A DNA stretch of 40,068 nt, from the NCBI GenBank assembly GCA_030066985.1, contig JASJAN010000049.1, forward strand, positions 1 through 40,068, read 5' to 3'. The notes beneath the pieces are model-generated. The model ran no database searches, had not been told where the DNA came from, and was given only the letters and a program-made list of their open reading frames with translations. The position numbers were made by a program, and so were the translations under genes. The stretch is from Desulfobacterales bacterium (GTDB lineage Bacteria > Desulfobacterota > Desulfobacteria > Desulfobacterales > JAHEIW01). Numbering within the stretch: the stretch's first letter is position 1; every line of letters begins with the position of its first letter. Below, piece after piece: positions 1 to 29,972 of this stretch.

Positions 1-2257
1 AAAAACAAGATCGCTGATAGATCGGGCCTATTGGCCTTTGGCCAATGCTTTTAAAAAATGCGTCGACTGCTAAAGATATTCGTTGTTCATTGTCTGTGTG
101 GGCGTTGTCTTTGGACCACTGGATGTCGGCATGCAGCGTCCAGCATTCGGTCGCACCCCGCTGAGGCTTGCTGTTATTTCTGGCCACCCACCGAACCGCT
201 GATCCATGAACAAAGATGGCGTCAAACGGCAGATCCAGCGGTTCGTTAAATGCAACCATCACCGCCAGGCAGGGCTGCATCTCAATGGCAGAGATGCGAT
301 CGCTTAGTTTCGGGCTAAGACCAACAAGACCGTTGGCCTGGGGTGGCGGGGCAGCGACGATGACAACATCATAGGGACCATGCACATTTTGTTGGGAATC
401 CATCAATTGCCATTGTTCATTGTTTTTTTGAAGTGATTCGATCGCCGTATTGAAGCGAATATCGACACCCTCAGACAGATGCGCTGCAATCGCATCCATA
501 CCGGGAATTGCCACCCAGCGCTCAGTCAATTGTTTTTCAGCAGACAGACGCCCCTGCCTGGCAACACCGATTCTGCCCTTCCATGGCGCAACAATTCCAT
601 CCATTTGCCATGATCTGACGAAACGAACCGTACGCTCATCCCGCACCGTAAAATATTGGGCACCGCTGTCGAAAGTAAAGTCTGCATCTTTAAGAGTTGC
701 CGTGCGGCCACCGGGTCTGCTGGCTTTTTCAAACACATGCACTTGATGATCATGGTCCATAAGCGTTCTGGCAGCAAAAAGTCCCGATATACCGGCACCG
801 ATAACTGCTATTTTGAATGGCTTTCCGGTTGCCGGCCCTTTGATTTTGTCAGCGTAAGCGGCCATATCCAGTCGTCTGGCATGATCTTTGGTGGAGCGGG
901 GGCGCAACGCGCCAATCACCGGTCGATCCGGTCTAAAGGGTCGATCAAACAATCCCAGGCACCACAACAATCCGCCATAGGAGTTGGCATCATTACCATC
1001 CAAGGCCAAACGATGGTTTAAATCAATCATCATATCAAGCGCCGTCTGAGGATCAGAAGTCCAGTCAAGAAATGCCTTGCCCCATGTCATCCGCACATTA
1101 TTGTGCAATTCTCCATGGACGAGCAGAGATTTCTGGGCGGCATCCCACAGCGCATCACCAGTTTGGCCCCGGTATAAACGCTCCCAGGAATATACTTCCT
1201 CGCGAGGATCATCTTTATGTTGTCTTATGGTCTCACGTGCCCATTGAGGAAGGACATCCAGTGTTTCCGGATATTGGTGATAAAAGCAAAAATTATGCGC
1301 CAGTTCGCGCCAGATGAGCAATTCGTCCAAGAATTTTGCAGCCCCGTTCGATCCATCCAGTTTTGCCTCTTTTGCGATGCGAAACGGAGACACGTGACCG
1401 TGATGTAAATACGCTGAAAGGCGGCTCACACCTCGAGGAAAAATGACAGCGGCATCATTGCGCAGACGGGCATAGCCTTTTAGACCCCGGCGCTTAAATT
1501 CCTCCCAACGCGCATATCCGGCGGAGGAACCGCCGGGGGTATGCACTACGGGCGGAATCGTATGATCAATATCACATTGGGCACACAAATCAGCAAAATC
1601 TGCATTTGCCAGGTCAAGGGCGTCAAACCCGCAATCGCCTGTGAACTTTTCGACCGCTTCATTAACATCTTCCCATGGTTGTCTGAGCCGCCGTTCAAAT
1701 TCTTTTTGAGTGTGGTTTCGAAAGGCATAGGCACGAGCAAACGAGCGTTTGATCGACTGCATGGGAATAATGCACGTGCAATCCACCGCCCAGACAGCCG
1801 TGTTTCCCCGTCCAACCAGCTGGCGGGTCCATTGCGGGAAGGGCGGTGCCGGAAACTCTTCAGTGATAACCAATGCTGCACGACGTGCCAATACGCTGAG
1901 CGGAGAAGGTTCGCTTGGTTTGCGCCCCAGATAGAATACATGCATGATTCGTCGTTCTCGCAGCCGTTGTTGCACTTCCCGTGCACCTTCCATAATAAAT
2001 GTGTGGTGACGGTCCGAGTTAAACGGATGCCGGCCGCCAAGTCCCTGATAAACCAATACCGGCAATTTTAATTGCGCAGCAATGCTCAGAGCCGTGTCTA
2101 TGGCCGGGTTCTCATGGTTGCGAACGGCGTGATGCATCCAGTAAAGAATAAATTCACCGTCCAATCGTAACGGCACATCTTCGATCAATCGGATCCGTTC
2201 GAACAAGTGGGGCGGTAATCTTTTGACCGCCTCCGCTGATGATACCTTATGCGACAT
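1..2257 (-). CDS. class II photolyase fused to renalase-like FAD oxidoreductase (3' end cut by window edge)
   Basis: A single frame stays open from ATG 2257 to the left edge, about 752 codons, with no stop. Residues 1-465 are a class II CPD photolyase, which repairs UV cyclobutane dimers with FAD and blue light. Visible marks are FILYWM near residue 35, RHHTFIMEG near 90, ELLIWRELAHNF near 310-322, a WGKAFLDW stretch near 390 and DGNDANSYGG near 418-427. A short linker leads to a second flavoprotein from about residue 480, opening with the Rossmann motif IAVIGAGISG and FEKASRPGGRT and continuing as a renalase-like amine oxidoreductase (PWKGRIG, then GQRPIGPIYQ near the edge). The start is supported by AAGG 8 bases upstream. 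It is divergent from the monooxygenase gene at 2375. The fusion is read directly from the sequence; the substrate of the second domain is unknown. Confidence 0.88.
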   Translation of the reverse strand, partial: MSHKVSSAEAVKRLPPHLFERIRLIEDVPLRLDGEFILYWMHHAVRNHENPAIDTALSIAAQLKLPVLVYQGLGGRHPFNSDRHHTFIMEGAREVQQRLRERRIMHVFYLGRKPSEPSPLSVLARRAALVITEEFPAPPFPQWTRQLVGRGNTAVWAVDCTCIIPMQSIKRSFARAYAFRNHTQKEFERRLRQPWEDVNEAVEKFTGDCGFDALDLANADFADLCAQCDIDHTIPPVVHTPGGSSAGYARWEEFKRRGLKGYARLRNDAAVIFPRGVSRLSAYLHHGHVSPFRIAKEAKLDGSNGAAKFLDELLIWRELAHNFCFYHQYPETLDVLPQWARETIRQHKDDPREEVYSWERLYRGQTGDALWDAAQKSLLVHGELHNNVRMTWGKAFLDWTSDPQTALDMMIDLNHRLALDGNDANSYGGLLWCLGLFDRPFRPDRPVIGALRPRSTKDHARRLDMAAYADKIKGPATGKPFKIAVIGAGISGLFAARTLMDHDHQVHVFEKASRPGGRTATLKDADFTFDSGAQYFTVRDERTVRFVRSWQMDGIVAPWKGRIGVARQGRLSAEKQLTERWVAIPGMDAIAAHLSEGVDIRFNTAIESLQKNNEQWQLMDSQQNVHGPYDVVIVAAPPPQANGLVGLSPKLSDRISAIEMQPCLAVMVAFNEPLDLPFDAIFVHGSAVRWVARNNSKPQRGATECWTLHADIQWSKDNAHTDNEQRISLAVDAFFKSIGQRPIGPIYQRSCF

Positions 2258-5162: not shown

Positions 5163-5167
5163 TTCGC

Positions 5168-6149: not shown

Positions 6150-6176
6150 TGGGGGTCTCCTTTCCAAAAGTGTTTA

Positions 6177-8239: not shown

Positions 8240-8392
8240 AGGCCGTCCTTGCAATTATTTAACATTTACGATGGGACGCGTTTAATATAAGCACGGAATG
8301 AGTTTCGTCAGCAGCCCGATGGCTGTTTTTAACAGAAATGAGGTGTCATGAAAGCGATTGCAAGGCGCATATTCAATCCATTTTGAGACTGG

Positions 8393-9637
8393 TCAAAGGG
8401 ATTTACCGAAATGCTTTGCAACCACCAATGCACTATTGACCCCGTCTTCATGGAAGCCATACCCCCAGTAGGCTCCGCAAAAATAAGTTTGTTTGACCCC
8501 ATTGATCTCCTCATGGCGGTTTCTGGCGGCCAAACTTGTTGGATTATACACAGGATGATGATAGTGCATTTCCTTGATTTTTTTGGCGGGGTCAATGGTG
8601 GCGGGTAAATTGAGCGTAACGCAATATTCGGCGGGAGCAGATAAACTTTGTAGAATATTCATGTCATAGGTAAGGGCCACGCGCGCCATTTCGTCCTCAG
8701 GAATATGGTAATTCCAGCTGGCCCAGGCCGCCTTTTTTCGGGGCAAAACCGATTCATCTGAATGCAGCACCGCATGATTGTCCTGATAGGGAATCGCCCC
8801 CAGGATTTCTTTTTCGCTGTCTGAGGGATCCGCCAGCATGGCCAGGGCCTGATCACTGTGGGTGGCGATGACCACCTGATCAAAGCGCTCGGGCTGGCCG
8901 TTGGCAGTTTGGACGCTGACATGATCCGAATGGCGCCGAATGGATGTGACCGGGCAACTCAGACGGATATGATCCCGATAAGGCCAGGTCAGGGGTGCCA
9001 CATACTGTTTCGAGCCCCCCTTTATGACCAGCCATTGGGGCTGATTGCGAACATTTAAAAATCCATGATTTTTAAAAAATTGGGCAAAATACAGGGCCGG
9101 AAATTCATTGAATTTTACCGGATCCGCCGACCAAATGGCCTCGCCCATGGGAATGATAAAATGCTCGATGAACAGCCGTGAAAACTGCTTAGCGGTTAAA
9201 AAATTTTCGAGGGTCAAGGTGTAATCATCGCTTTTAAGAAGCGCTTCGGACTCACGCCTAAATTTAAAAATATCGAAGATCATCCGATAAAATGATGGCC
9301 GCAATAGATTCTTGCGCTGAATAAAAAGCGAATTCAAAGAGCTGGGGCTAAATTCCAAGCCGGTCTTTTTGCACTGCACACTAAAGCTCATATTGGAAGG
9401 TTGCCAGGCAACACCCAGACGCTTCATCAACCGCACAAAATTGGGATAGGTTTTTTCGTTGAAGACAATAAATCCGGTATCCACCGCATATTTATCGCCA
9501 TTCAGACTGACATCGATGGTGTGCGTGTGGCCACCGATATAATCCTCGGCCTCAAATATGACCAGTTCATGCTCATCACTGAGCAAATAGGCGGCCACCA
9601 TGCCTGCAATACCGGTTCCGATGACTGCAATACGCAT
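8393..9637 (-). CDS. FAD/NAD(P)-binding amine-oxidase-like oxidoreductase (COG2907 type)
   Basis: A 414-residue flavoprotein. It opens with the dinucleotide-binding motif IAVIGTGIAGM at residues 3-13, followed by FEAEDYIGGHTHT and VDTGFIVFNEKTYPNF, typical of COG2907 proteins related to phytoene desaturase and amine oxidases. The C-terminus has the FAD-contact stretch FCGAYWGYGFHEDGVNSAL. Members co-occur with DUF1365 and CFA-synthase genes, and one homologue (UfaO) takes part in furan fatty acid formation in Rhodobacter, so oxidation of a modified acyl chain is the likely role. A purine-rich GGGGGA precedes ATG 9637. It lies 36 bases after the desaturase gene. Confidence 0.9.
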   Translation of the reverse strand: MRIAVIGTGIAGMVAAYLLSDEHELVIFEAEDYIGGHTHTIDVSLNGDKYAVDTGFIVFNEKTYPNFVRLMKRLGVAWQPSNMSFSVQCKKTGLEFSPSSLNSLFIQRKNLLRPSFYRMIFDIFKFRRESEALLKSDDYTLTLENFLTAKQFSRLFIEHFIIPMGEAIWSADPVKFNEFPALYFAQFFKNHGFLNVRNQPQWLVIKGGSKQYVAPLTWPYRDHIRLSCPVTSIRRHSDHVSVQTANGQPERFDQVVIATHSDQALAMLADPSDSEKEILGAIPYQDNHAVLHSDESVLPRKKAAWASWNYHIPEDEMARVALTYDMNILQSLSAPAEYCVTLNLPATIDPAKKIKEMHYHHPVYNPTSLAARNRHEEINGVKQTYFCGAYWGYGFHEDGVNSALVVAKHFGKSL

Positions 9638-14623: not shown

Positions 14624-14652
14624 GGCCGAATAAGGCAGGAAAGGCAATCCAA

Positions 14653-16208: not shown

Positions 16209-16274
16209 TCCGTATTAATATTTTACCGCCCGCTTTGGTCTTCGCTCTGAGAGCACCGACCCAATAAGTCGCTC

Positions 16275-16529: not shown

Positions 16530-16542
16530 TGCGGTGAATCCT

Positions 16543-19131
16543 TCATCTTTCACGCAGAAGCGTTGCCGGCGGCTTGCGAAACACCATCTTGACCGCCGGC
16601 AGGGCTGCAGCCAGAGCCGTCAATATGATCAACGGAACCGACAAAAACAACGCGTCCCAATTGACGCTATATATAAACGTCCAGCCAAACGATTGGCGAT
16701 TGACGACATACACTAGCAAATAAGACAGTATAAACCCGCAGACAATTCCGCCCAGCTCCCCGATGACAACCAAAAAGGCGGCTTCCCAAAATATCATGGT
16801 CCGAATCTGCTTGAAACTGGCGCCGACGGCAAACAGGGTGTTCAGTTGCCGGGACCGTTCCAGTACCAACACGGTTAGGGTAGTGGCAATTCCCAGTGCG
16901 GCAATCAGTAGCGCAATCAGCAGCAAAACCGTTGTAACGGCAAAAGTTTCGTCAAAAATTCGCAAGACAGCACCGCGCAATCCCTTACCGCTGTACATAT
17001 CAACCTTGCCCCCCATACGATCGATAATGGCGGTTCGAAGTCTGGAAACCGCCAGATCGATGTCCTGGTCTCGATCTTTGAAAAAAAAGCGTACACCGCC
17101 CCAGTAAGTTGAATGATACTGGGCGTTAAATTGCGCCATGGAGTAGAAAACCACACCGCCCTGCGTGCGATAATCACGAACAATGCCGAGTATGGGTAAC
17201 TCTACAAGGGATTCCTCGATCTGCGCCTTGAAAACATCACCGACGGTCAATCCGGTGCGATTTGAGAACACTTCGGAAACGATAACCCCTTCTCCGCGCT
17301 TGAGCTTCGGGCGGACGATTTCCGGATCTCCTTTCATCCAGAAAAAAGATGCATATTGCATAAATTTCTGCATGTCCATTAACTCAAATTCGTACGGGAA
17401 CCCATCATAATTTAAAAATAGCCGTAGATTGGGCAAAATGTCGACCTCGGATGTATACGCCTGCAGATCATCAATAACCTCATGTGGGATGGGAAAGCGA
17501 AAGCGATTTATTTCCCCCATTTTTGAGGTTAGGAACAAATCTCCCTTAATGGTCTCATAGGTCCAGAATTCAACTGTCTGGCGAAAGCTGTAAATCATGA
17601 TGACCAAAGCAGTAAACAAGGACACGGCCGTAATCAGGGCGCCCACCGAGACCGCCGTGCGGGTTCCGCTGTCGCGTACATAACGGCTGGCAAGATAGGC
17701 CGGCACACCCATTTGCTTGAGCAGCGGTCCTGATAGGCCGTGGCTGATTTTCTGCAGCGTCCATGGTGCCAAGAGCGCAAAACCGACAAATAACAGAAAA
17801 ATGGCCAAATAGCCTGGCAGCGGCATATCTAATACGGCGGGCAGCCGCGATAAAGGCAACACCAACACGATACAGATAAGCCCGCCGATAGCCAATTGTC
17901 GTGGAGATTTTCTGGGCTGCATCCCCAGTTGCGAAATCTCCAAGGCTTCTTTGGGGGGCACTAGCATGGCCTCTCGAGCAGGCTGATACGCCGCTAAAAT
18001 GGAGATACCCACGGTAACGACAAAACTGAAAACAAACTCTGCCACACTAAGTGAAAGCGCATCCACCTGCACGCGCACAAAAAGAGTGGAAATGGTCTGA
18101 CTAACGCCGTGCAGCAAATACTTTATTAAAAAATGGCCTATCGGAATTGCAACCAACCAGCCAACAATTCCTAAGAAAGCACCTTCGGCTAAAAATATGA
18201 AAAAAACGTGATAGGCAGAGGCACCGGTGGACCTTAGGATCGCCAGTTCATGGCGACGCGATGCTGCATTCAGGGCCACCAAACTGTAGACCAAAAACAT
18301 CCCCACAAACAATGAAGCAAAGCTTAAAATGGAAAGGTTGAGCTGATAGGCCCTGATCATTTTCTGGCCGCTTTCGCGTGTGGCAGTCGGCGGATTGAGC
18401 TCAATACCATTTGACATTAGCTGCCGAATTTCAGCCAGATCGGCTGCAGTCGCATAGTCTTTTAGCTGCAAGTCGATTCGATCGACTTTGCCGAAAAGAC
18501 CGGTAAATTCCTGGAAAGTGGCGATGTCGGTTAAAGCGATATGGCCGCCCTCAGCCATTGACAGCCCGCTAGATTCAAGCAGCCCTACAATTTTAAACGG
18601 TGCTGTTTGGTGTGCATGCTCCAAATACAACAGATCGCCCGCTGTGCGCTTTGTCTGGCGGGCCAGGGGCTGGCCGATGATCAGCGTATAGGGCTCTTTT
18701 AGCAGATCCAGCCACACGGCGCCCTGCTGACCGTCGAGGTTATCAATTCGCCATTGGCGCAAAGATCGATCCAGAATCGGATCAAATCCGATCAACAAAA
18801 ACGGCTCTGCGCCTTCTTGGGAGGATTGTGTATATGTTGACAGCACCGGCGAAGCACTTCGGATTATCGGATGTTTTAGGAGCTCAGCTGTCAGGTGTTC
18901 AGGAACATATCCGCCAGGCCGCGTGAGCACATGATCGGCCCTCCCGGTGATTAAATCCATGCTTTTGGTAAAAGAATCCAGCGAGGCATTTACTGACAGA
19001 CGAACGCTGGTAAACACCGCCGCCCCGAGCGCAATTCCAAAAAGAACCGTTACCACCCGGCCCTTATGTTTGCGCATATGTCGCAGACTAAACCAGATAA
19101 AAAGGCGAAAGAAGAATATAAGGTGTCTCAT
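16543..19131 (-). CDS. ABC transporter permease, FtsX/LolE-like, two-domain (AttF/AttG type)
   Basis: An 862-residue inner-membrane protein with duplicated FtsX domains. A first membrane helix near residues 20-45 is followed by a large periplasmic MacB-like domain and helices at about 265-400. A second set starts with about 425-480 and 505-530, a second periplasmic part, and helices at about 725-855. This is the MacB/Lol type permease that pumps or extracts substrates at the periplasmic side rather than importing them. ATG 19131 overlaps the ATPase stop by four bases (ATGA), so the two subunits are translationally coupled. With the ATPase and the AttH-like protein it forms an AttEFGH-like unit. 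In the classical att cluster the permease is encoded by two genes; here it is one. Confidence 0.9.
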   Translation of the reverse strand: MRHLIFFFRLFIWFSLRHMRKHKGRVVTVLFGIALGAAVFTSVRLSVNASLDSFTKSMDLITGRADHVLTRPGGYVPEHLTAELLKHPIIRSASPVLSTYTQSSQEGAEPFLLIGFDPILDRSLRQWRIDNLDGQQGAVWLDLLKEPYTLIIGQPLARQTKRTAGDLLYLEHAHQTAPFKIVGLLESSGLSMAEGGHIALTDIATFQEFTGLFGKVDRIDLQLKDYATAADLAEIRQLMSNGIELNPPTATRESGQKMIRAYQLNLSILSFASLFVGMFLVYSLVALNAASRRHELAILRSTGASAYHVFFIFLAEGAFLGIVGWLVAIPIGHFLIKYLLHGVSQTISTLFVRVQVDALSLSVAEFVFSFVVTVGISILAAYQPAREAMLVPPKEALEISQLGMQPRKSPRQLAIGGLICIVLVLPLSRLPAVLDMPLPGYLAIFLLFVGFALLAPWTLQKISHGLSGPLLKQMGVPAYLASRYVRDSGTRTAVSVGALITAVSLFTALVIMIYSFRQTVEFWTYETIKGDLFLTSKMGEINRFRFPIPHEVIDDLQAYTSEVDILPNLRLFLNYDGFPYEFELMDMQKFMQYASFFWMKGDPEIVRPKLKRGEGVIVSEVFSNRTGLTVGDVFKAQIEESLVELPILGIVRDYRTQGGVVFYSMAQFNAQYHSTYWGGVRFFFKDRDQDIDLAVSRLRTAIIDRMGGKVDMYSGKGLRGAVLRIFDETFAVTTVLLLIALLIAALGIATTLTVLVLERSRQLNTLFAVGASFKQIRTMIFWEAAFLVVIGELGGIVCGFILSYLLVYVVNRQSFGWTFIYSVNWDALFLSVPLIILTALAAALPAVKMVFRKPPATLLRER

Positions 19132-19823
19132 ACAAGGTCCGTAATCATACCATCTTTTAAACCCAATCTGACGGATGCCATTTCATCGGCCAGGGTGCTG
19201 TGGGTTGCAATCAAAACAGTCCGCTGCCATTTACGGTTCAGTTCGGCCAGGAGTTCAATGACGATTTGACCGTTGCGGCTGTCTAAATTTCCGGTGGGCT
19301 CATCGGCTAAAATAATGGCAGGATCGTTAATGAGGGCTCTGGCAATGGCGGTGCGTTGCATCTCGCCGCCGGAAAGCTGGGCCGGAAGATGATTTAAGCG
19401 ATTTTCGAGCCTTAGCCATTGGAGCAGTTCCATGGCTTTGGGACGGCTCTCCGCAACCGACTTGCCGGCCAGAAGCGCGGGCAGACAGATATTTTCAAGG
19501 ACATTCAGGGTGGGCAATAAGTTAAAGGACTGAAAGATCATGCCGACAACCTGCCGGCGGAAGTGGGTCAATTGACTGTCGGTGATGCTGTTGAGATCAT
19601 GCTGGTCGACCCTCAAGTCGCCCCCGGTGGGCCGATCCAAACCGGCCAGAAGAGAGAGCAAGGTGCTTTTGCCGGAACCGCTGTTGCCTTTAAGCACAAC
19701 CAGCTCACCGGCAGCAATGTCGAGGTCGACCTGGTTGACGCCAATGACATCGCTGTCGCCCAGTTTGTATACTCGGGTAAGCCCTTTGGCTGATATTACG
19801 GCTCGAGATGATTCATCGGTCAT
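19128..19823 (-). CDS. ABC transporter ATP-binding protein, LolD/AttE type
   Basis: A 231-residue cytoplasmic ATPase. All motifs are intact: Walker A GNSGSGKS at residues 46-53, Q-loop in [10 protein letters not shown] near 98, signature LSGGE at 150-154, Walker [12 protein letters not shown] at 171-181 and H-switch in IATHS near 210. The [14 protein letters not shown] and DEPTGNLD sequences are those of the MacB/LolD subgroup. It energises the two-domain permease encoded immediately after it by an ATGA overlap. The gap upstream (19824-20004) carries a repeat element and presumably the operon promoter. Confidence 0.94.
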
Positions 19824-20004: not shown

Positions 20005-20661
20005 TTATTTTGCCAGGTATCCTTTCTCCACGGCATCATCGATCAAAAAGGACACATACTCCCATAACAGCTGCGAACCTTCGTTGACTGGCTGCATTCG
20101 CGCAATGACCTGTTTTTTTTGGATACCGTGTTTTTGCCAGGTATGGCCCCGCGTAAAATAATTGTGCAAAAAAGGCTGCACCCGATCCAGGGCATTGGCA
20201 AATTTTGACTCAGGGGTGTCTTTGGCTTCGTATTCATCCCACAAAGCCCGAAGTGATGCAGCCTGATCTGCCGGCAGGATGTTGAAAATGCGATCAGCCG
20301 CTTTGGTTTCACGCTTATATTGATCCTGACCACCGCCTTCGTCATAGCAGTACGTGTCACCGGCATCGATTTCAACTAGATCGTGAATCAGTAATAATTT
20401 GATCACCTGCAAGAGATCTAGCTCATCATCTTTGGCATACTCGGATAATATGAGCACCAGCAAAGCGATGTGCCAGGAGTGCTCGGCTGAATTTTCCTGA
20501 CGGGATACATCCAGCAGAGTAGTTCGACGGGCCACATTTTTAAGTTTATCCGCTTCCAGTATAAAATCGATTTGGCGTTTGAAACGCTCACCATCCACCG
20601 ACCCGGTTTCGCTTGCTTCATTTTCAAAGCCGGTTTTTCCCTTACCCCCTGCTTTCAACAT
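20005..20661 (-). CDS. HD domain phosphohydrolase (YfbR/HDDC2-like)
   Basis: A 218-residue protein with an HD metal-dependent phosphohydrolase domain. The pattern EHSWH (His near residue 61), then HDLVEIDAGD (HD at 93-94) and a later Asp in NALDRVQPF match the YfbR and HDDC2 families, which cleave 5'-deoxyribonucleoside monophosphates. A nucleotide-pool role would fit a DNA-damage island but is inference. ATG 20661 has GAGGAG 6 bases upstream; a longer in-frame start would overlap the methyltransferase gene. It follows the methyltransferase gene at 35 bases, so the two are likely cotranscribed. Confidence 0.85.
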   Translation of the reverse strand: MLKAGGKGKTGFENEASETGSVDGERFKRQIDFILEADKLKNVARRTTLLDVSRQENSAEHSWHIALLVLILSEYAKDDELDLLQVIKLLLIHDLVEIDAGDTYCYDEGGGQDQYKRETKAADRIFNILPADQAASLRALWDEYEAKDTPESKFANALDRVQPFLHNYFTRGHTWQKHGIQKKQVIARMQPVNEGSQLLWEYVSFLIDDAVEKGYLAK

Positions 20662-20696
20662 AAGCCGCTCCTCAATTCTGAAATGGTCGTTAGCGG

Positions 20697-21914
20697 TTAT
20701 TTTTCGCGGGTATATCCCCACACGGCATAAACCGGATCGGAAAACAGCACTTGTGAGGCGTATTGATCATCGGCCGGGCGCGGCAGTCCCCGCATGGAAT
20801 ATGTGTGCAGATGGGTATATTGACCGGATTTTAAGAAGAATTCAAGTACCAATCCCATACGCTCAAATTCATGCAGCTGCGGCCAGATGTTAATGGCTTT
20901 GGGAGGAAACCAGCGATTGGAGAACGTGATAATGAAAATACCGCCGGGCTTCAGAACACGATGAATTTCTTCAAAGGTGCCAAAAGGGTCGGATAAATAT
21001 TCAACTGAAACCGTGCAAATCGCGGCATCAAAAGCGCTGTCGTCAAAGGGCATATTCGAATTTGCGTTCAGATCGTGAACACAATATTCAGTTAGTCGAT
21101 CGTTGGCCTGAAGTTCTGCTGCATTCATGCCCAGACCGGTGAGCGCTGTTAAGGCAAGGTCTTCCGGCAAGTGAGACACCCAGCTGCTCATCAAATCCAG
21201 AACGGCGTTCCCGGGTTTGAGCAACCTGCCATACAGACGGCGGATGGTATCAATTGCCGTTTCATCGATGTGCTGCACCAGGCGGGGTTGCGCGTAGAAT
21301 TGATCGTCAGGGTTTTCATCGGGTCGACGGAAAGGATCTCCGTCAAAAAAATGGGTCGGGCTGCCGTTTACACGTGACTGCATTCCCGGCCCGTTGAGGG
21401 CGGTCTCCGCCCAGTCAATACTGGTGCCGCCATGTTCTTCAAATTTTTCACGGACGTCTTTGATGGTCGCTTTAAATGTGATGGGTTTGTCCGTTAGGGG
21501 ATGATTCGCATCGGCCTTGATGCCGTCTCCGTTGGCAGATACACAGCGAAAAGGGGTCATGTTGTTAGGATAAACATTCGCTACTTTATTTAGGATTCCC
21601 AGAGGATAAAATCGGCCGAATCTGGGTTGAATCGGTTCCATCTGAGGAGCAAGGGGCGCAATCTGGCGTTGGTGAAACCTATAGATTTTGCGATCGTCTC
21701 TGGCCGCCACTAATGTTCCGGGTTTAGCCTGCAAAATGACCTGATCACCGCTTTTTTTGCCGTACAATTCTGCTTCCATTGGGGGAGGTAGAATATCACG
21801 CCACATATTAACTCTCTGGCCGTAGTAGCAGTCGGTATGTTGAATGCCGTTGTTTTGATAGGACGCACTAAATACAATGCTTGCCAAGACATCATCAGAT
21901 ATTTTATCCATCAT
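20697..21914 (-). CDS. FKBP-like domain plus SAM methyltransferase-like domain
   Basis: A 405-residue two-part protein. Residues 1-165 contain a segment with RQIAPLAP near 84 and ANHPLTDKPITFKATI near 136-151, which resembles the bulge-and-strand region of SlyD/FKBP peptidyl-prolyl isomerases. Residues 215-400 look like a class I methyltransferase: PFDDSAFDAAICTVSVEYL and HRVLKPGGIFIITFSNRWFPPKAI are typical of the methyltransf_11 group. Motif I, where VLDxGxGxG is expected, reads VLDLMSSWVSHLP, so the glycine-rich SAM loop is changed. The family with this variant is widespread near photolyases but has no assigned substrate that I know. GGGGGA precedes the start. A neighbour of the HD gene. 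Confidence 0.8.
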   Translation of the reverse strand: MMDKISDDVLASIVFSASYQNNGIQHTDCYYGQRVNMWRDILPPPMEAELYGKKSGDQVILQAKPGTLVAARDDRKIYRFHQRQIAPLAPQMEPIQPRFGRFYPLGILNKVANVYPNNMTPFRCVSANGDGIKADANHPLTDKPITFKATIKDVREKFEEHGGTSIDWAETALNGPGMQSRVNGSPTHFFDGDPFRRPDENPDDQFYAQPRLVQHIDETAIDTIRRLYGRLLKPGNAVLDLMSSWVSHLPEDLALTALTGLGMNAAELQANDRLTEYCVHDLNANSNMPFDDSAFDAAICTVSVEYLSDPFGTFEEIHRVLKPGGIFIITFSNRWFPPKAINIWPQLHEFERMGLVLEFFLKSGQYTHLHTYSMRGLPRPADDQYASQVLFSDPVYAVWGYTREK

Positions 21915-22081: not shown

Positions 22082-23623
22082 TTAAAGTCGGTTTAAATCT
22101 TTCTTGTAGGATTTCGCCTGCTTTAAGATAAGCTGTTGATCCTCAGGGTCTTTACGATGCCAGGTTCGGTACATCATACCGATACGGTGGTTGTTTTGTA
22201 ATTTGTTGTGATGCCGGGCAAAAAAATCCCAGAATAAGCAGTTAAACGGGCATGCAGACTCTCCATGGGCTTTTTGACGGTCATAATGACACTGGCTGCA
22301 ATAATCGCTCATCTTGTTAATATAGTTGGCTGAAGACACATAGGGTTTGGTGGCAACCAGGCCTCCGTCGGCCCACTGGCTCATTGCCCGGGTATTGGGC
22401 ATCTCAACCCATTGGATGGCATCAATGTATACGCCCAGGTACCATTCTTCGACCTGGTCGGGATGCACCCCGGCCAGCAGGGCAAAATTCCCGGTTACCA
22501 TCAGGCGTTGGATGTGATGCGCGTAAGCATGCTCTAATGATTGGCCGATGGCGGCCTGCATGCATTGCATTTTGGTCTCGGCGGTCCAGTAATAATCTGG
22601 CAAGTCGGTCTTGTGATTGAAAAAATTCATGTGCTCCAGTTTCGGCATCAGCGCCCAATAAATGCCGCGCATGTATTCGCGCCAACCCAGGATCTGGCGC
22701 ACAAAGCCTTCAATCTGCTGAATCTTGATGGCGCGCTTTTGCTTCTCCCAGGTTCGGATGGCCGCTTTGATGACTTCAAGTGGGTGCAGCATCTTGGTAT
22801 TGAGCGCAAATGAAATCCGGGCATGGAATAGCGACCAGCTTTCAGTGGTCATGGCATCTTGATAGGTGCCGAATTCTTTGAGCCCATCTTTTAAAAATGC
22901 ATTTAACAAGGCAAGAGACTGGGACCGACTGATCGGCCAGATTAAAGTTTTTTTCTGGACGCTGCCGAAGGTCTTGACTCCGGCCTTCTCGATCATTTTA
23001 TGAAGCTCAGTGACATCATTGCGAAATAATTTGGGCTTGGGAATCGGAACCCGGCCATCGTAGCGCCGGCGGTTTTCCACATCGAAGTTCCAGCGCCCGC
23101 CCTGCGGCTTGTCGCCGTCCATTAGAATGTCATGTTTTTTGCGCATCTGGCGATAGAAGGATTCCATCAAATAGCGTTTTTTCTCGGCAAAAAAATCTTT
23201 AAAATCCTCGCGTCGGGTGACAAAATGCTCAGTGTCGACCGCCTCCGAGGAAACCGAAAGCGATTTGGCCAGTTTGCGCAGCTCGACATCCAGGCGGTAT
23301 TCATCGGGCAACAGATACTCGAAATGTGCATACTGCTTTTTTTTAAGCAGTTGTTTGATGTTGCCTGCGATGGTTTGCTTATTTTTCGGATCATCCAGCC
23401 GCAGATAAATGACGCTGTGCCCTTTTGCTTCTAATTTTTCCGCAAAAGCGCGCATGGCCGCAAAAAAGGCCAGCACTTTTTGAACGTGATGCTTGACATA
23501 ATCTGTTTCTTGACGAATTTCCATCAGGACATAGGCAACCGTTTTGTCCGGTTTTTGAAACCAGGGGTGATTTTCGTTTAGCTGATCGCCGAGGATGAGT
23601 CTTAATGTTTTTGCCGTCGCCAT
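22082..23623 (-). CDS. iron-sulfur (6-4) type photolyase / FeS-BCP cryptochrome (COG3046)
   Basis: A 513-residue flavoprotein of the FeS-BCP group (Agrobacterium PhrB is the model), which repairs UV (6-4) photoproducts with FAD, a 6,7-dimethyl-8-ribityllumazine antenna and a [4Fe-4S] cluster. N-terminal LRLILGDQLNENHPWF and the C-terminal YAHHIQRLMVTGNFALL are typical. The four cluster cysteines are visible at about residues 353 (KMQCMQ), 443 and 446 (CSQC) and 459 (ACPFNC), with the C-x2-C-x12-C spacing of the family. I chose ATG 23623 over an in-frame start 42 bases upstream because the conserved N-terminus begins there and the length fits. It follows the class II photolyase gene by 92 bases on the same strand. 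Confidence 0.94.
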   Translation of the reverse strand: MATAKTLRLILGDQLNENHPWFQKPDKTVAYVLMEIRQETDYVKHHVQKVLAFFAAMRAFAEKLEAKGHSVIYLRLDDPKNKQTIAGNIKQLLKKKQYAHFEYLLPDEYRLDVELRKLAKSLSVSSEAVDTEHFVTRREDFKDFFAEKKRYLMESFYRQMRKKHDILMDGDKPQGGRWNFDVENRRRYDGRVPIPKPKLFRNDVTELHKMIEKAGVKTFGSVQKKTLIWPISRSQSLALLNAFLKDGLKEFGTYQDAMTTESWSLFHARISFALNTKMLHPLEVIKAAIRTWEKQKRAIKIQQIEGFVRQILGWREYMRGIYWALMPKLEHMNFFNHKTDLPDYYWTAETKMQCMQAAIGQSLEHAYAHHIQRLMVTGNFALLAGVHPDQVEEWYLGVYIDAIQWVEMPNTRAMSQWADGGLVATKPYVSSANYINKMSDYCSQCHYDRQKAHGESACPFNCLFWDFFARHHNKLQNNHRIGMMYRTWHRKDPEDQQLILKQAKSYKKDLNRL

Positions 23624-23715: not shown

Positions 23716-25104
23716 TTATTTTCTGCTCTGTTCTTCCAGGGCATCCACTTTTTTGACATAGGCCCCAATATCACATTTGCGCTCCAGCCCGGAGGCGGCC
23801 ATATACCGTACTTTGCCGAAAATCGGCCGTTCAAACCATGCCCGGTCATGGACACCAAACACCCAGGCCACACCGGTGTAGGAATTGGCGTCGCGGCCGT
23901 CCAGGAAATATTTATTGTTAATGGCCAAAGTTGTCTTAAAAGCCTGTTCCGGTGTTGGCATCCATTCCAGAATCTTTTTGCCCCAGTACATGCGCATGTA
24001 ATTGTGCATAAATCCGGTGGTCTTCATTTCCCGCATGGCCGCATTCCAATACTCATCGTGGGTTTTGGCATTTTCCAGCTGCCGGCGCGTATACCTATGC
24101 TCACGCTTGTCTTTTTTATGCTCGCTTAAGGTCTTTTGCGCCCAGTTCGGCAAACATTGATAAGAATCATAGTCGGGCGTGTAATAGACAAAGTTCATGG
24201 CCAGTTCGCGCCGCACGATTAATTCCTCCAGATACGCCTCCTGGGCATCCTTGAATCGCATGTCGCTTTTGAGGACCTGCAAGGCCAGATAAAGCGGGGA
24301 GATCTGACCGAAATGCAAATATTTGCTCATATGAGAGACATCATCGGTTTGGGGCTGGTTGCGATTTTTCACATAATTTCCAAATCGGTGTCTAAGGAAA
24401 TCGGCAAATATTTTGTGTGCCTTTGATGTGCCACCTTTAAACAAATCACTGACCGCTGAAACATTAGGATCAATTTTCAATTTAGCTAATATGGCATCAA
24501 TGTCTTTCAAATCGATGCCCTTAGCACTAAGGGAAAGAGATGCGTGTTTTACTTTTGTGGGTTTAAAGTCCGTTAGATAATTGTTCAGCTGTTTATGGAT
24601 TTTAGGGCGTATGGTGCGGGCTGCGTATTCGGCTTTGTTGGACACCACCTCGAGCGGCACAACCACATCGCTTTCGATCTGAATCACCCGGCAACCGGCT
24701 TTCCGGGCAACTTTTTGCCGCCACTGTTTTTGGTGCCTGAGATATCCGCGGTCGCATACGACCAGGGATGCCTTTTGGCAGGCGACAAGGGCGACATCAG
24801 CCGGGTGGCCTTTTTGAACGACCATTTTGATGCCGCGTTTGGCAAGCGTCGTCTGGGTCTCCTGCAGCCCCTCTAACATGAAGGTGTAATGGCGCAAATT
24901 GGCCTCGGGATAGTCGTCCATCAGCCCGAAAACAACTAAAATGCCCTGCCCTCTTTGATTCGCCTGCTGCACCGCATATTCCAGCGCATGGTTATATTCG
25001 GCCCGCTGAGACTGCTGCATCCAGTACAGCACAAAATTACCCTGACGCGCATCAAGATCATTTAGCGACTGAATACGCGATTCATGAATATCCTGATATT
25101 TCAT
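23716..25104 (-). CDS. phr: class II CPD deoxyribodipyrimidine photolyase
   Basis: A 462-residue class II photolyase, which splits cyclobutane pyrimidine dimers with reduced FAD and light. Marks in order: NFVLYWMQQSQRAEYNHAL near 23-41, RHYTFMLEGLQE near 80, EELIVRRELAMNFVYY near 315, NYMRMYWGKKILEW near 385 and DGRDANSYTGVAWVFG near 427. It ends with the typical IFGKVRYM stretch. I chose ATG 25104 (AAGG upstream) over an upstream start that overlaps the cytochrome gene. It is closely spaced behind the octaheme cytochrome gene (28 bases), suggesting one transcript. It differs strongly from the photolyase half of the fusion gene at the left edge, so the window has two class II copies. Confidence 0.95.
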   Translation of the reverse strand: MKYQDIHESRIQSLNDLDARQGNFVLYWMQQSQRAEYNHALEYAVQQANQRGQGILVVFGLMDDYPEANLRHYTFMLEGLQETQTTLAKRGIKMVVQKGHPADVALVACQKASLVVCDRGYLRHQKQWRQKVARKAGCRVIQIESDVVVPLEVVSNKAEYAARTIRPKIHKQLNNYLTDFKPTKVKHASLSLSAKGIDLKDIDAILAKLKIDPNVSAVSDLFKGGTSKAHKIFADFLRHRFGNYVKNRNQPQTDDVSHMSKYLHFGQISPLYLALQVLKSDMRFKDAQEAYLEELIVRRELAMNFVYYTPDYDSYQCLPNWAQKTLSEHKKDKREHRYTRRQLENAKTHDEYWNAAMREMKTTGFMHNYMRMYWGKKILEWMPTPEQAFKTTLAINNKYFLDGRDANSYTGVAWVFGVHDRAWFERPIFGKVRYMAASGLERKCDIGAYVKKVDALEEQSRK

Positions 25105-25132: not shown

Positions 25133-26632
25133 TTATTTTTTTGCTGCACCATCGAGTTTTGTTTGCAACTTTAACCAGTCATTGAGCTCCAACAGGGTTT
25201 GGGACAATTGATAGCGGCCGCCGGCAAATACGCCATAATCGCCCCCGCCGGCCATAGACGAAGCAAAACGGATCGTATTGGAATAAAACAACCAGGTGGT
25301 GCTCCATTTTTTTTCAATGGCTTCGTCATAGGGGTTGTCCTGCCGGTCGGCCAGACCGCGTTTCCAGATGTCCTGCATGATGCGGGTGGCGGTCAGGGTC
25401 TGGGCGTTGGTTTCTTTGATGGTGTTTTCAAAGCGTTGCCAGTGGCCATTAACCCAGGAAGCATCATGGCAATTCAGACAAGCCGCCTGCATGGCCTGTT
25501 TGCGAACAGCCATCTCTTTTTCATCGATAAGATATTTGGATGCCAGGCCACCGTCCAGATCGGTCGGCAGCGGCAGTCCGTCTTTGTTGCGGATAATGCT
25601 GGTATCGGGTTCAATGGGATGCGGATGGGCGTAAATCAGACCCAAAATGCGCCACGGCAGCCGATTGTTCATCTGATGGGTTCGTTCAACCACCACCTCC
25701 TCATCGGTGTTTACCAATAAGCTGATATGACAGGTAGCGCAGGTGGGGGCGGTAAAGTCCTTGCCGATGGTCCACGGCACGGCCTTGAAATCCCAGGTGG
25801 CTTGCTTACTTGCAAAGATGTTGCCGTGTTTGCTGGCGCTATAGACTTTATAAGCCGGCACATCGGGGCCCACGTGGCATTCTTTGCAGGTATAAGGTTT
25901 GCGTGCCACTTCAATAGAGAACGTGTGACGCGTGTGGCAGGCTGAGCAGGCGCCCATACTGCCGTCCAGATTGATGCGGCCCACACCCTGATTGGGCCAG
26001 CCCTTGATAATTGGAAATTCCAGCTCACCGGCTGCTTCGGTGTCGCGGACTTCGGTGCCGGTCAGCTCAAGCTTGGTGCCGTGGCAGTAGTAGCACGCTT
26101 CAGCTTTGGTGGCCTCGTTGGCGGGCGACCGCGTTATTTTACCGTCCTTGTATGTTGTAGAGGCCAGCACAGCATGCTCATGCTTTTGATGCAGCTGGTT
26201 ATGCACCAGATTACCGTACGCATGCGACATGATGTTTTTGGCATATTGCTTTCTTTCGGTCGCATGACAGGTCTGACAGTCATCGGGGCTGACCACCACA
26301 TGAACATCATAGCCGTTATGCTCAAAGGTATCCGCATGGGCTTCGGGTCTGAGCGTGTGGCATTCGGCGCATCCCACCACAACGTTTTGCAGGCTTTCTG
26401 GCACCGAGGTGCTGGAAACTTTGCGGCCAACACCCTCCACTGCCATGGCTTTTTGAGGGGAGATCATGGCATGACGACTTTTTTGCCAACCGCTGACGAT
26501 TCCCGGGTGAATCGATGCGTGGCAGTCGATACACTCGGCACTGGCTTCGCTGAGGGGTATCTCATCCGCTCCAGCAAAGCTGTTAATTAACACAACCAAA
26601 CAGACCGTCAGGATGAACACAAACCATTTCAT
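25133..26632 (-). CDS. octaheme c-type cytochrome of the hydroxylamine oxidoreductase (HAO) family
   Basis: A 499-residue exported protein with a signal peptide cut near residue 22 and exactly eight CxxCH haem sites, starting at C34, C88, C119, C180, C229, C249, C298 and C385. Haem spacing and the context sequences PGIVSGWQKSRHA, TAPTCATCH and SSMAGGGDYGVF are those of HAO-like octaheme cytochromes. The fourth site, CYYCHG, corresponds to the catalytic (P460) haem. Family members oxidise hydroxylamine or hydrazine, or reduce nitrite and related nitrogen or sulfur compounds; the reaction here depends on whether the cross-linking Tyr is present, which I cannot settle. It acts in the periplasm. 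AAGGAG precedes ATG 26632. Its place between an SRPBCC gene and a photolyase gene is unusual. Confidence 0.93.
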   Translation of the reverse strand: MKWFVFILTVCLVVLINSFAGADEIPLSEASAECIDCHASIHPGIVSGWQKSRHAMISPQKAMAVEGVGRKVSSTSVPESLQNVVVGCAECHTLRPEAHADTFEHNGYDVHVVVSPDDCQTCHATERKQYAKNIMSHAYGNLVHNQLHQKHEHAVLASTTYKDGKITRSPANEATKAEACYYCHGTKLELTGTEVRDTEAAGELEFPIIKGWPNQGVGRINLDGSMGACSACHTRHTFSIEVARKPYTCKECHVGPDVPAYKVYSASKHGNIFASKQATWDFKAVPWTIGKDFTAPTCATCHISLLVNTDEEVVVERTHQMNNRLPWRILGLIYAHPHPIEPDTSIIRNKDGLPLPTDLDGGLASKYLIDEKEMAVRKQAMQAACLNCHDASWVNGHWQRFENTIKETNAQTLTATRIMQDIWKRGLADRQDNPYDEAIEKKWSTTWLFYSNTIRFASSMAGGGDYGVFAGGRYQLSQTLLELNDWLKLQTKLDGAAKK

Positions 26633-26673: not shown

Positions 26674-27159
26674 TTAGCGGCGGCTTCCAAAGAACGCTTC
26701 GAGAGCTGTTTGCCGATAATCAAATATGTCATTCAGCTTGCAGCGTATTACCATATTGTGCAGGATTTGTCCAAGCCAACCAAATTTGAGAGCATAGTGG
26801 ACCGTATCCTGCATTTCAATGCCGCCGGTCTGTTCGATGAATCTGTGTTGATGGTGCCAGAAACGATACGGACCCAATCGCATCTCATCGATGAAAAAAT
26901 AAGGTTCATTGACATGGGTAATTTCAGTGATCCAGGTGGTTGGGAGTTGAAAGATCGTTTTGAGTCGGTAGCTGATAATCATCCCGGCGTACATTTGGTC
27001 AGGGATGGTATTGGTTATTTTAAAGTCAAGCCAAACCGGGGTGATTTGTTGGAGATTATGGGGATCGGAAAAGAATGCCCAGGCCGTTTTAAGGGATATG
27101 GGTAACAATTGGCGGCGTTCAAGCCGATATAGTTTCATAAAATTTATAAACGATGTCAT
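26674..27159 (-). CDS. SRPBCC superfamily protein
   Basis: A 161-residue protein with a START/Bet v 1-like (SRPBCC) ligand-binding fold. Marks are RLERRQLLPISLKTAWAFFSDPHNLQQITP near the N-terminus, then LDFKITN and GMIISYRL, and the end DIFDYRQTALEAFFG. Such proteins often accompany SDR genes in photolyase clusters. The ligand is unknown. The start is uncertain: neither ATG 27159 nor ATG 27138 has a good ribosome-binding site, and I took the longer one. It lies 55 bases after the SDR-DUF2867 gene and 41 bases before the cytochrome gene. Confidence 0.8.
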   Translation of the reverse strand: MTSFINFMKLYRLERRQLLPISLKTAWAFFSDPHNLQQITPVWLDFKITNTIPDQMYAGMIISYRLKTIFQLPTTWITEITHVNEPYFFIDEMRLGPYRFWHHQHRFIEQTGGIEMQDTVHYALKFGWLGQILHNMVIRCKLNDIFDYRQTALEAFFGSRR

Positions 27160-27214
27160 GTGAAACCCAAAATGCAAATGCTGACATCCGGCTGCCAGAT
27201 GATGGATGTTATGA

Positions 27215-28753
27215 TCAGATGTCACTTGTCGGTAACGTGCAGCTATCATGCAGCTTGGGTGTGAATCTTGTTGGTCCCTGCAAAAGGGCTTTACCGGACT
27301 GCTTGGCTATGGATTTTAGCATGCCGGCAAAAACCAATTGATGAAACGGATAAAACGCATACCAGTAAATAAAGCCGCTCAGCCCTCTGGGCATAAAGCG
27401 GGATATCAGCTCCAGCTCAGATCGCTTCGCTCCCATAGCGTTGATTTGAAATTCCAGCAAGGCATCGCCGGGGGCTTTCATTTCAGACAGCAGCACCAGA
27501 CGCTGGGGTGGCTCCACAGCAAGAACCCGCCAGAAATCCACTGCTTCGCCGACGTATCGACCTGTATTATTGGCGCTTCCGCGGCCAAGCCCCGCACCGC
27601 CGCACAACCGATCGATCCAGCCGCGCAGCCGCCACAGGGAATCGCCGAAGTAATAGCCCCGTCGGCCGCCGATTTTATGTATCAGGTCCCAGAGCGCCTC
27701 GACCGGGGCATCGATTTTGGCGCGATAACCGCATTTGAGGATCGTTCCGCCTGCCCAGTCCGCATCACCGCAATGGGCCCATTCGGGTTCAATCAGCTCA
27801 CCAGCATCTGCCCAGCAACTATCTATCTGTTGCTGTTTAACCAAATCCAACGCCAAACGAATCGCTTCCCGGCAGCTCAGAAGCTTCTGCGGGATAATCG
27901 ACTGGATGCGGTTTTCACTGCATACCGCTGCGCTGGTCAAGCCTTCGGTCAGCGGCAGGGCAATCGATGCCGGCACCGGGCTGATCAGGTGAATCCAGTA
28001 GGCACTCAGGGTCGGTGTCAAAACAGGCACCGGTATAACCCAGCGTTTACGCAAATGCGCTTCCTCAGCGTAGATATCCAAAAGCTTGCGATAGGTTAAA
28101 ACATCCGGACCGCCGATATCATACGTTTGTCCGGTGGTCTCATCGTGAGCGAGGCATTCCACCAGGTAATGAATCACATTGCGAATGGCAATCGGTTGGT
28201 TGAGCGAAAACACCCAACGCGGTGTGGTCATTACCGGTAGATGCTCCACCAGGTAGCGTAAGATCTCAAAGGAAGCGCTACCGGATCCTAAGATCATCGG
28301 GGCTCTCAAATCCGTGGTGGGCACCGATCCGGCTTGCAGGATGTCAGCCACCTCGATACGGGATTGTAAATGTTTGCTCAGGGCTTTGTCTTGTGCTTCG
28401 GCCAGACCTCCCAAATAAATAATTCTTGCCAAACCTTCAGAAGCGGCCGCATTGACCATGTTGCGGGCGGCCTTGCGATCCGCTTCGGCAAATTTTTCTT
28501 TTTGGGCAATCATGGAATGCACCAGATAATAGGCGGCCCAGCAGCCTTTAGCTGCTTTTTCCAGTGTGGCATATTCCAGCACATCACCCTGAACCAATTC
28601 AATCTGTTCGTGCCTCGCCCAGGGTCGGCAGGCGAGCTTATCAAGGGAACGGCCCATGGCCCTGACCCGGTATCCGGCTTCGAGCAAGGCCGGTATCAGC
28701 CGCCCGCCGACATAACCCGTCGCCCCGGTCACCAAAATAGGTTGAGAGGTCAT
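27215..28753 (-). CDS. SDR-type NAD(P)-binding domain fused to DUF2867
   Basis: A 512-residue two-domain protein. Residues 1-310 are an atypical extended SDR (NmrA/complex I intermediate-associated type) with ILVTGATGYVGGRLIPALLE at the N-terminus and YYLVHSM and RIIYLGGL further on. The rest, from about residue 345, is DUF2867, itself an SRPBCC-like domain, with WDLIHKIGGRRGYYFGD and VDFWRVLAVEPPQRLVLLSEMKAPG. The function is unknown, but this architecture is common next to photolyase and cryptochrome genes. ATG 28753 has GGAGG 8 bases upstream; an earlier GTG lies inside that ribosome-binding site and was rejected. It likely leads the run SDR - SRPBCC - cytochrome - photolyase - photolyase. 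Confidence 0.9.
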   Translation of the reverse strand: MTSQPILVTGATGYVGGRLIPALLEAGYRVRAMGRSLDKLACRPWARHEQIELVQGDVLEYATLEKAAKGCWAAYYLVHSMIAQKEKFAEADRKAARNMVNAAASEGLARIIYLGGLAEAQDKALSKHLQSRIEVADILQAGSVPTTDLRAPMILGSGSASFEILRYLVEHLPVMTTPRWVFSLNQPIAIRNVIHYLVECLAHDETTGQTYDIGGPDVLTYRKLLDIYAEEAHLRKRWVIPVPVLTPTLSAYWIHLISPVPASIALPLTEGLTSAAVCSENRIQSIIPQKLLSCREAIRLALDLVKQQQIDSCWADAGELIEPEWAHCGDADWAGGTILKCGYRAKIDAPVEALWDLIHKIGGRRGYYFGDSLWRLRGWIDRLCGGAGLGRGSANNTGRYVGEAVDFWRVLAVEPPQRLVLLSEMKAPGDALLEFQINAMGAKRSELELISRFMPRGLSGFIYWYAFYPFHQLVFAGMLKSIAKQSGKALLQGPTRFTPKLHDSCTLPTSDI

Positions 28754-28811
28754 TTCACAGTCCTCCACGATAATTGAAGGTAAAATTCAATTTAGCCGCA
28801 GTTAATAAGCA

Positions 28812-29021: not shown

Positions 29022-29972
29022 TCAGACGTGGGTTCGGAGCTTTAGCTCGACCGGATGCGGATTCAAGTATGTTTGCATTTTTAAGTACTGCTGATCGTAT
29101 TTGCGCACAAAATGGTTGATGAGCGTGATCGGCACCACCAGCGGCACATACTCCTGCCGATATTGATCGAAGACCTCCAGCAGCTCCTGCTTTTCATCTT
29201 TAGACAATTGCTTTTTAAAATATCCCATTAGATGCTGCAGCACATTCATATTCTTCTTGGGTGTGGTTTTGAGCGCCAGGGCTTCCATCAGAATCGCTTC
29301 ATATTGGGCATACAACTCATCCATGGGCAGCTGTTTGCCGGCGGCCACCAGTTTGCCCATCAACCGCGAATGCTTTTGGCTATGCGAGAGAATCAAAAGC
29401 TTGTTGCGGGTATGAAAATCCACCAGATTCCCCATATTTTTGCCATTGCTAATCGTCTGCCGCCAGCGCTGCAAAGCAAAAATACGTTCGATAAAATTTT
29501 CTCTGATTTTGGGATCATGCAGCCGCCCGTCGTCTTCGGCCGGAATCAGCGGGAAATGCTTCATAAATTCCCTGGCAAACATGCCCACCCCTTTTTTGAC
29601 GGGCATGCCTTTCTCGGTGTAGACCTTTACCCGGATCATACCGCTGCTCGGAGAGTCACTTTTGAAAATAAAACCATGCAGATCTTCCTTCTCCAATTCT
29701 TTGACTCTCTTGCGGGCCCAGGTCAGCATCTGCTCGGTGTTATCCGTTTTGGTCTTAAAGGTAATCAACCGCGGGTTTTCCGGATCGCCCACCAGACGCA
29801 TCGATTCCCGGGGAACGCCAAAACCGGCTTCGACTTCCGGACAGACTGGCATATAATCCACAAATTGACCCAGGGTGCGGGTTAGGTAACGATCCATCTT
29901 GTGACCGCTATTCCAGCGAACTGAATTACCCAGCAAACAGGAGCTGATACCCAGTCGAACGCGTTCATTCAT
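29022..29972 (-). CDS. DUF523 and DUF1722 domain protein (YbgA-like)
   Basis: A 316-residue protein with DUF523 at residues 1-150 (RLGISSCLLGNSVRWNSGHK, CPEVEAGFGVPRESMRLVGD, FKSDSPSSG) and DUF1722 from about 180 (FHTRNKLLILSHSQKHSRLMGKLV). The fused form is typically encoded beside photolyase genes in proteobacteria and is induced with them. DUF523 has conserved cysteines (C12 and C45 here) that may bind a cofactor. The molecular function is unknown. GGAGG lies 6 bases before ATG 29972. It is divergent from the small flavoprotein gene at 30102. Confidence 0.93.
   Translation of the reverse strand: MNERVRLGISSCLLGNSVRWNSGHKMDRYLTRTLGQFVDYMPVCPEVEAGFGVPRESMRLVGDPENPRLITFKTKTDNTEQMLTWARKRVKELEKEDLHGFIFKSDSPSSGMIRVKVYTEKGMPVKKGVGMFAREFMKHFPLIPAEDDGRLHDPKIRENFIERIFALQRWRQTISNGKNMGNLVDFHTRNKLLILSHSQKHSRLMGKLVAAGKQLPMDELYAQYEAILMEALALKTTPKKNMNVLQHLMGYFKKQLSKDEKQELLEVFDQYRQEYVPLVVPITLINHFVRKYDQQYLKMQTYLNPHPVELKLRTHV

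Follow-up and report, generated by a model that had tools for sequence, protein, structure and literature searches.

A probable IhOCC-type octaheme cytochrome gene with a recurrent, non-obligatory pairing to class II photolyase genes in a Desulfobacterales bacterium and its relatives

Genes of the window

The window analysed here is the whole 40,068-nucleotide stretch at positions 1 to 40,068 of contig JASJAN010000049.1, forward strand, from a Desulfobacterales bacterium (assembly GCA_030066985.1). Its minus strand carries an octaheme cytochrome gene, hereafter OCC, beside a class II photolyase gene. The features on which the analysis draws are as follows.

2..2257 (-), fusion of a second class II photolyase-like domain with an FAD/amine-oxidase domain, incomplete at the contig end
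6177..7547 (-), CFA/UfaM-like cyclopropane-type fatty acid methyltransferase (PF02353; UfaM likeness putative)
8393..9637 (-), FAD-dependent amine-oxidase-type oxidoreductase (PF01593)
20005..20721 (-), HD-domain (HD_3) hydrolase (Pfam)
20697..21914 (-), methyltransferase-domain protein in the same strand run, downstream (Pfam)
22082..23623 (-), DPRP (PF04244), an FeS photolyase-like or CryB-like protein (Pfam)
23716..25104 (-), class II (CPD-type) DNA photolyase (phr2 superfamily TIGR00591, E 8.9e-157)
25133..26632 (-), octaheme cytochrome c (OCC), IhOCC-type, 499 aa (ORF, Pfam and PDB searches)
26674..27249 (-), SRPBCC or polyketide-cyclase-like protein, weakly assigned (PF03364 E 4e-4, below cut-off)
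26748..26774 (-), TTGGAC-N13-TATGNTAA element of 27 bases, 115 bases upstream of the ATG of OCC
27215..28768 (-), NAD(P)-binding SDR fused to DUF2867 (Pfam)
29022..29972 (-), RudS-like protein, TudS/DUF523 fused to DUF1722 (Pfam)

The initial annotation had placed the eight-haem protein 28 bases from the photolyase gene and 41 bases from an SRPBCC gene, all on one strand, and both coordinates and spacings were confirmed. The photolyase scores 523 bits against TIGR00591, slightly below the curated cut-off of 550. The DPRP reading frame is open up to a TTG at 23665, the likely ATG being at 23623. Proteins of the RudS family take 4-thiouridine out of tRNA, and their genes are frequent in light-responsive operons (PMC11417400, in part).

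Several further groups of genes lie around this run. Positions 4266-9637 (-) group genes for DUF2177, DUF1499, Usp, CFA/UfaM-like, DUF1365 and FAD amine-oxidase proteins, a set that recalls light-induced lipid-modification genes of Pseudomonas, of which UfaM and one FAD oxidoreductase are named in PMC9758184 (in part). Matches comparable to the gene at 2-2257 occur in other genomes of the class, in open frames of 813-845 aa that may carry such a fusion. An ABC ATPase, an FtsX-type permease and a CrtC/lipocalin protein are encoded at 15048-19823 (-), and this set also adjoins the OCC gene in photolyase-free loci, for example L035, L047 and L086. The HD_3 gene likewise lies downstream of OCC in the photolyase-free loci L035, L069 and L077. 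Two short ORFs at 14213-15024 (+) match no Pfam family; the first has relatives near OCC in 5 of 117 loci.

Identity and key residues of the cytochrome

The OCC reading frame is intact, with AAGGAG preceding its ATG, an N-terminus that is signal-peptide-like as judged by eye, and eight CXXCH haem motifs, none of them CXXCK. It matches PF13447 (E 3e-19), and its closest solved relative is PDB entry 4qo5, aligned over nearly the whole length (phmmer E 5e-112, profile search E 1e-152); far weaker PDB matches are Nitrosomonas HAO, HAO-like proteins of Kuenenia, and hydrazine dehydrogenase. The entry 4qo5 is labelled a hypothetical multiheme protein in the PDB, and we take it to be IhOCC, Igni_0955 of Ignicoccus hospitalis. 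IhOCC, reportedly described in FEBS J in 2016, is said to reduce nitrite and hydroxylamine. An AlphaFold2 model of OCC from a 24-row alignment (mean pLDDT 61, pTM 0.56) was too poor for a fold search.

Asp257-Val258 of OCC aligns with Asp267-His268 of HAO (numbers counted along the printed alignment row), the catalytic pair of that enzyme, and 4qo5 likewise has Asp-Val in the profile alignment. In epsilonHAO, a Met sits eight residues ahead of the Trp equivalent to the cross-link Tyr of HAO (PMC8940962, in part). By this Met+8 rule, allowing for an extra Gly, Phe469 of OCC stands at the position of the cross-link residue Tyr467; the HMM alignment row instead puts Val468 there, a doubt of one residue. 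The Met+8 residue of 4qo5 is also Phe. Further likenesses to 4qo5 are the near full-length alignment and the eight CXXCH motifs, whereas 4qo5 has an additional stretch between haems 7 and 8 and the window OCC has its extra Gly ahead of the DY motif.

These features are largely constant among orthologues. Val occupies the catalytic-His position in 113 of 115 scored sequences (one Ala, one Phe; two more left unscored), of 116 residues scored at the cross-link position (one left unscored) 105 are Phe and 11 are Tyr, and eight CXXCH motifs are present in 113 of 115 full-length orthologues. Alignments A2 and A3 of the orthologues leave out L044, taken in a wrong frame, and L063, a fragment. The sequences with Tyr at the cross-link position come from L034, L035, L036, L037, L056, L063, L067, L071, L090, L099 and L116, and a parallel gain of a cross-linked haem in these eleven is possible.

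The likeness to Nitrosomonas HAO (1fgj, 4fas) comprises the superfamily, the order of haem motifs and the CHTRH motif at haem 5, whereas equivalents of both Tyr467 and His268 are missing from OCC. EpsilonHAO, which is linked to NapC/NrfH, shares about 30 percent identity, eight CXXCH motifs and the DY motif with OCC, and differs by a Trp at the cross-link position, by an Asp-His pair and by the NapC-type gene before it, described below. Octaheme nitrite reductase (ONR) is defined by CXXCK at haem 4 (PMC10716430, in part), whereas the fourth motif of OCC is CYYCH.

The lack of the cross-link Tyr has been taken as a sign of reductive enzymes (PMC8940962 and PMC12758564, each in part). The residue reported for the key site of such enzymes is His in the latter source, which also describes a separate change to Tyr inside Desulfobacterota, and Trp in the former (both in part); the Phe read in OCC differs from either. 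Because of the 4qo5 match, the Asp-Val pair and Phe469, we regard OCC as an IhOCC-type octaheme cytochrome, probably reductive in function, and not a strict HAO. The earlier assignment to the HAO family therefore stands at the level of the superfamily defined by PF13447 and fails for HAO proper, to judge by 4qo5 as closest relative and the replacement of Tyr467 by Phe469. An HAO5A clade joins proteins of anammox bacteria with those of archaea (Ignicoccus, Ferroglobus), inside larger clades rich in Desulfobacterota (PMC12758564, in part); going by the 4qo5 match, the window OCC would belong to this clade.

Distribution and recurrence of the photolyase pairing

Octaheme cytochromes are widespread in Desulfobacterota. 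A search with OCC gave matches at E 1e-30 or better in 268 of 389 genomes of the class and, among the matches listed, at least 124 genomes in which a match, fragments included, reaches 50 percent identity. The remaining rows among the matches listed belong to a second, more distant type at 31-42 percent identity. Seven loci of this second type were fetched, and a NapC/NirT-type gene (cluster c34) lies directly before the octaheme gene in five of them; the label c34 comes from a gene calling that kept the longest of overlapping ORFs, a filter left out of the neighbourhood counts. No NapC-type neighbour of OCC occurs in the 117 close loci, which sets them apart from epsilonHAO. The nearest named relatives of OCC are from metagenome-assembled genomes of Deltaproteobacteria and Desulfobacterales, at 92 and 87 percent identity, and a GTDB scan returned 32 close OCC loci, 4 of them in Zixibacteria. 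In two of the Zixibacteria loci (L060:13839-15068 and L061:7744-8985), a second octaheme-type protein of about 23 percent identity is encoded downstream of the IhOCC-type gene, at a distance of about 4 kb.

The neighbourhood set consists of the 117 unique close OCC loci that remained after removal of duplicates. A class II photolyase gene lies within 5 kb of OCC in 25 of these, downstream on the same strand in 18, upstream on the same strand in four and on the opposite strand in three; in 17 of the 18 downstream cases the gap between reading frames is at most 252 bases. Within the same 5 kb, SDR-DUF2867 genes occur in 17 loci, RudS in 17, DPRP in 10 and SRPBCC in 8, and in a further nine loci RudS, SDR-DUF2867 or DPRP is found within 6 kb in the absence of photolyase. 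In L040 and L066, both from one genome, OCC is preceded by part of a truncated SDR-DUF2867 gene and by a short remnant that is SRPBCC-like, as if an operon there had lost genes.

Class II photolyase was counted in 99 genomes at E < 1e-90, four weaker genomes having been dropped from the 103 matched. Among the matches listed, and uncorrected for kinship, it is present in 55 of the 124 genomes with a close OCC versus 44 of the 265 without. Where a genome has both, the two genes lie within 5 kb of each other in 26 of 55, against about 0.16 expected by random placement (coordinates compared by eye, among the matches listed, 389 class genomes).

The initial annotation had left room for chance adjacency, to be recognised by the lack of a recurrent neighbourhood in relatives, and had proposed neighbour mapping with a phylogeny as the check. 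The neighbourhood recurs in 25 of 117 loci, and on the OCC tree the photolyase state needs 12 changes, where 100 shuffles gave 21.6 on average and never fewer than 17. This count used the 84 loci with scorable flanks (25 with photolyase, 59 without), the other 33 having been set aside for flanks that were too short. A tree was also made of 45 photolyases, of which 25 adjoin OCC and 20 were picked without it. There the label of OCC adjacency needs 9 changes against a shuffled mean of 15, and at least four of them are forced by well-supported branches. Taken together, trees and counts indicate that the pairing has been inherited in part, and in part formed anew or lost. It is recurrent but not obligatory. 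In genomes G263 and G105 OCC is missing from the photolyase operon (L181, L182) and lies elsewhere; this operon consists of RudS, SDR-DUF2867 and photolyase, with DPRP too in G263. The placement of the cytochrome inside a photolyase operon, as first proposed, is borne out by spacing and strand in the window and does not extend to these relatives.

The initial annotation had also named separate promoters as a mark of chance adjacency. The TTGGAC-N13-TATGNTAA element, which falls within the SRPBCC reading frame in the window, has one exact match in the genome. It is found exactly before OCC in 7 of 108 loci, with one more at one mismatch, and in 0 of 540 base-shuffled sequences at up to one mismatch. 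The seven loci are kin, three of them from one genus (the window and two same-genus relatives). The element may be a promoter of OCC's own, or a remnant or coincidence of SRPBCC coding sequence. In L066, a stretch of 34 residues upstream of OCC still matches SRPBCC (35 percent, E 0.26), and by eye L035 and L065 resemble it. Scans for consensus promoters and terminators did no better than shuffles, with 8 versus 10.3 and 12 versus 10.9, respectively, and are uninformative about the limits of the operon.

Possible roles of the cytochrome beside photolyase genes

Light-induced clusters of Pseudomonas that depend on LitR contain phrB, SDR, FAD oxidoreductase, ufaM and cryB genes (PMC9758184, in part), and rudS has been placed in a LitR-controlled operon (PMC11417400, in part). 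The window brings together photolyase, RudS, SDR, CryB-like and UfaM-like genes, so that the gene types of such a cluster are present, counting RudS, photolyase, DPRP, SDR, a CFA/UfaM-type gene and an FAD protein. Three differences from the Pseudomonas genes stand beside this likeness: the window photolyase is of class II, whereas we take PhrB of Pseudomonas to be a class I photolyase; an octaheme cytochrome is included; and no LitR/CarH-type regulator was found among the window ORFs scanned, which were part of all its ORFs. Two MerR-B12 (CarH/LitR-like) proteins are encoded elsewhere in the genome, at L195:5229-6155 and L196:4624-5589, and a search of the genome for a ChrR-type cupin (PF12973) gave no match.

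The host genome, 97.8 percent complete, has no match to NrfA. Its four PF03063 matches are two Hcp proteins (hydroxylamine reductase family) and two CO dehydrogenases according to NCBIfam. A search of the genome with OCC gave as its sole other match a weak one to an epsilonHAO remnant. Flavodiiron-type, rubrerythrin, peroxiredoxin, Cu/Zn SOD or DUF438-hemerythrin genes, families picked after their recurrence was noticed, lie within 5 kb of OCC in 14 of the 117 loci, none of them a locus with photolyase (peroxiredoxin 6, flavodiiron-type 6, rubrerythrin 5, Cu/Zn SOD 3).

Our preferred reading, to which we give a probability of roughly 0.46, is that OCC reduces nitrite, hydroxylamine or NO in the periplasm and is deployed together with a set of genes for light and oxidative stress. 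The protein would be secreted and its haems attached in the periplasm, where either c-type cytochromes of that compartment or a quinol dehydrogenase in the membrane would supply it with electrons, and the open haem 4 would be the site at which nitrite, hydroxylamine and possibly NO are reduced. Within this lineage the cytochrome would have become part of the set RudS, SDR-DUF2867, SRPBCC, OCC, photolyase and DPRP, presumably co-transcribed and under light control, and periplasmic reactive nitrogen would be cleared under the conditions in which photolyase repairs DNA. The tie between the two would be a regulatory one, as lit surface layers may also hold nitrite, hydroxylamine and oxygen. The residue check speaks for the removal of reactive nitrogen species that had been suggested at the outset: the HAO cross-link Tyr is missing, Phe469 stands there, and absence of the Tyr is in print as favouring reduction. 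The second suggestion, a supply of electrons to the photolyase, is unlikely because the proteins are expected in different compartments. A c-type octaheme cytochrome with a signal peptide goes to the periplasm, and a photolyase acts on DNA in the cytoplasm; we rejected this donation on topology, the two lying on opposite sides of the membrane.

In favour of the periplasmic nitrogen reductase we count the 4qo5 match, the residues, the missing NrfA, the epsilonHAO remnant, the two Hcp proteins, the recurrence, the stress-gene neighbours and the LitR-type gene kinds; against it count the 92 of 117 loci with no photolyase within 5 kb (59 with scorable flanks, 33 with flanks too short), G263 and G105, the loci with a YedE-type gene, the possible OCC promoter, the choice of the stress-gene families after their recurrence had been noticed, the promoter and terminator scans, and the lack of LitR in the window as scanned. 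A rival reading makes OCC a passenger, an old resident that is driven by its own promoter and serves in ordinary respiration or detoxification, around which the photolyase operon settled and with which it shares no function. Five loci without photolyase (L035, L047, L069, L077 and L086) share genes with both outer flanks of the window, the common ones being ECH, His-phosphatase, DHH, EamA or MBL on one side and HD, ABC, FtsX or CrtC on the other, and this sharing suggests that OCC is resident here and that the photolyase genes now stand around it. The operon that stands without OCC in G263 and G105 fits as well, as does the element exact in 7 of 108 loci and absent from the shuffled sequences. 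Against a passenger, adjacency in 26 of 55 genomes versus about 0.16 expected (among the matches listed) comes in three arrangements, and the changes forced on the photolyase tree mean repeated adjacency, which is hard for passengers to achieve; we hold this account to be possible, if somewhat unlikely.

As a reductase of peroxide or other reactive oxygen, OCC would pass electrons to H2O2 or O2-derived species in photo-oxidative stress, with nitrogen secondary, and the peroxiredoxin, rubrerythrin, Cu/Zn SOD and flavodiiron-type neighbours in other loci would suit that role, as would the lipid-modification and FAD-oxidase genes of the window. No peroxidase-type relative is among the PDB matches listed, however, and nitrite and hydroxylamine are, to our knowledge, the substrates of the relatives that have been characterised, which makes a peroxide reductase decidedly unlikely. 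A reductase of sulfite, tetrathionate or a similar sulfur compound would be at home in a relative of sulfate reducers: the nearest named OCC relatives are Desulfobacterales, and a YedE-type sulfur transporter gene follows OCC in 6 of the 117 loci. This we consider very improbable, as the listing of PDB matches, which extends to E 10, includes no octaheme tetrathionate reductase, and no recognised sulfur-metabolism gene lies beside OCC in the window. A true HAO, turning hydroxylamine into NO or nitrite, could point to the PF13447 superfamily match and to the minority of orthologues, 11 of 116, with Tyr at the cross-link position; with Phe at that position and Val for the catalytic His in the window protein itself, it is scarcely credible.

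A broader proposal than the nitrogen reductase, and one we think unlikely, is that sediment anaerobes or microaerophiles run a light-triggered programme in which photolyase, tRNA de-thiolation by RudS, lipid modification and the removal of nitrite, hydroxylamine or NO from the periplasm by an octaheme reductase are co-regulated. A motive would be that light or near-UV turns nitrite into NO and hydroxyl radicals, and that hydroxylamine adds mutations. If true, organisms thought of as dark and anoxic would possess a combined defence against light and reactive nitrogen. The recurrent link to a light and UV stress set in any case suggests a testable condition, light plus nitrite or hydroxylamine.

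A photolyase-octaheme pairing was not found in a literature search that included parts of PMC2628731 and PMC9239080, and photolyase is not mentioned in the main text of PMC12758564. IhOCC itself is archaeal, and in the literature covered in part the search found neither a photolyase context for it nor a physiological role for its branch. The photolyase setting would accordingly be new for a known branch of cytochromes, the HAO5A/archaeal clade among Desulfobacterota being already in print (PMC12758564, in part).

The epsilonHAO remnant of the host genome lies at L197:7569-8336 (-), about 77.6-78.3 kb on contig G000:C22, where one ORF joins the first half of a NapC/NrfH-type cytochrome to the last third of an epsilonHAO. 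This fusion represents either a deletion or an assembly error; the same-genus genomes G077 and G198 have a nearly full-length epsilonHAO match at 66 percent identity.
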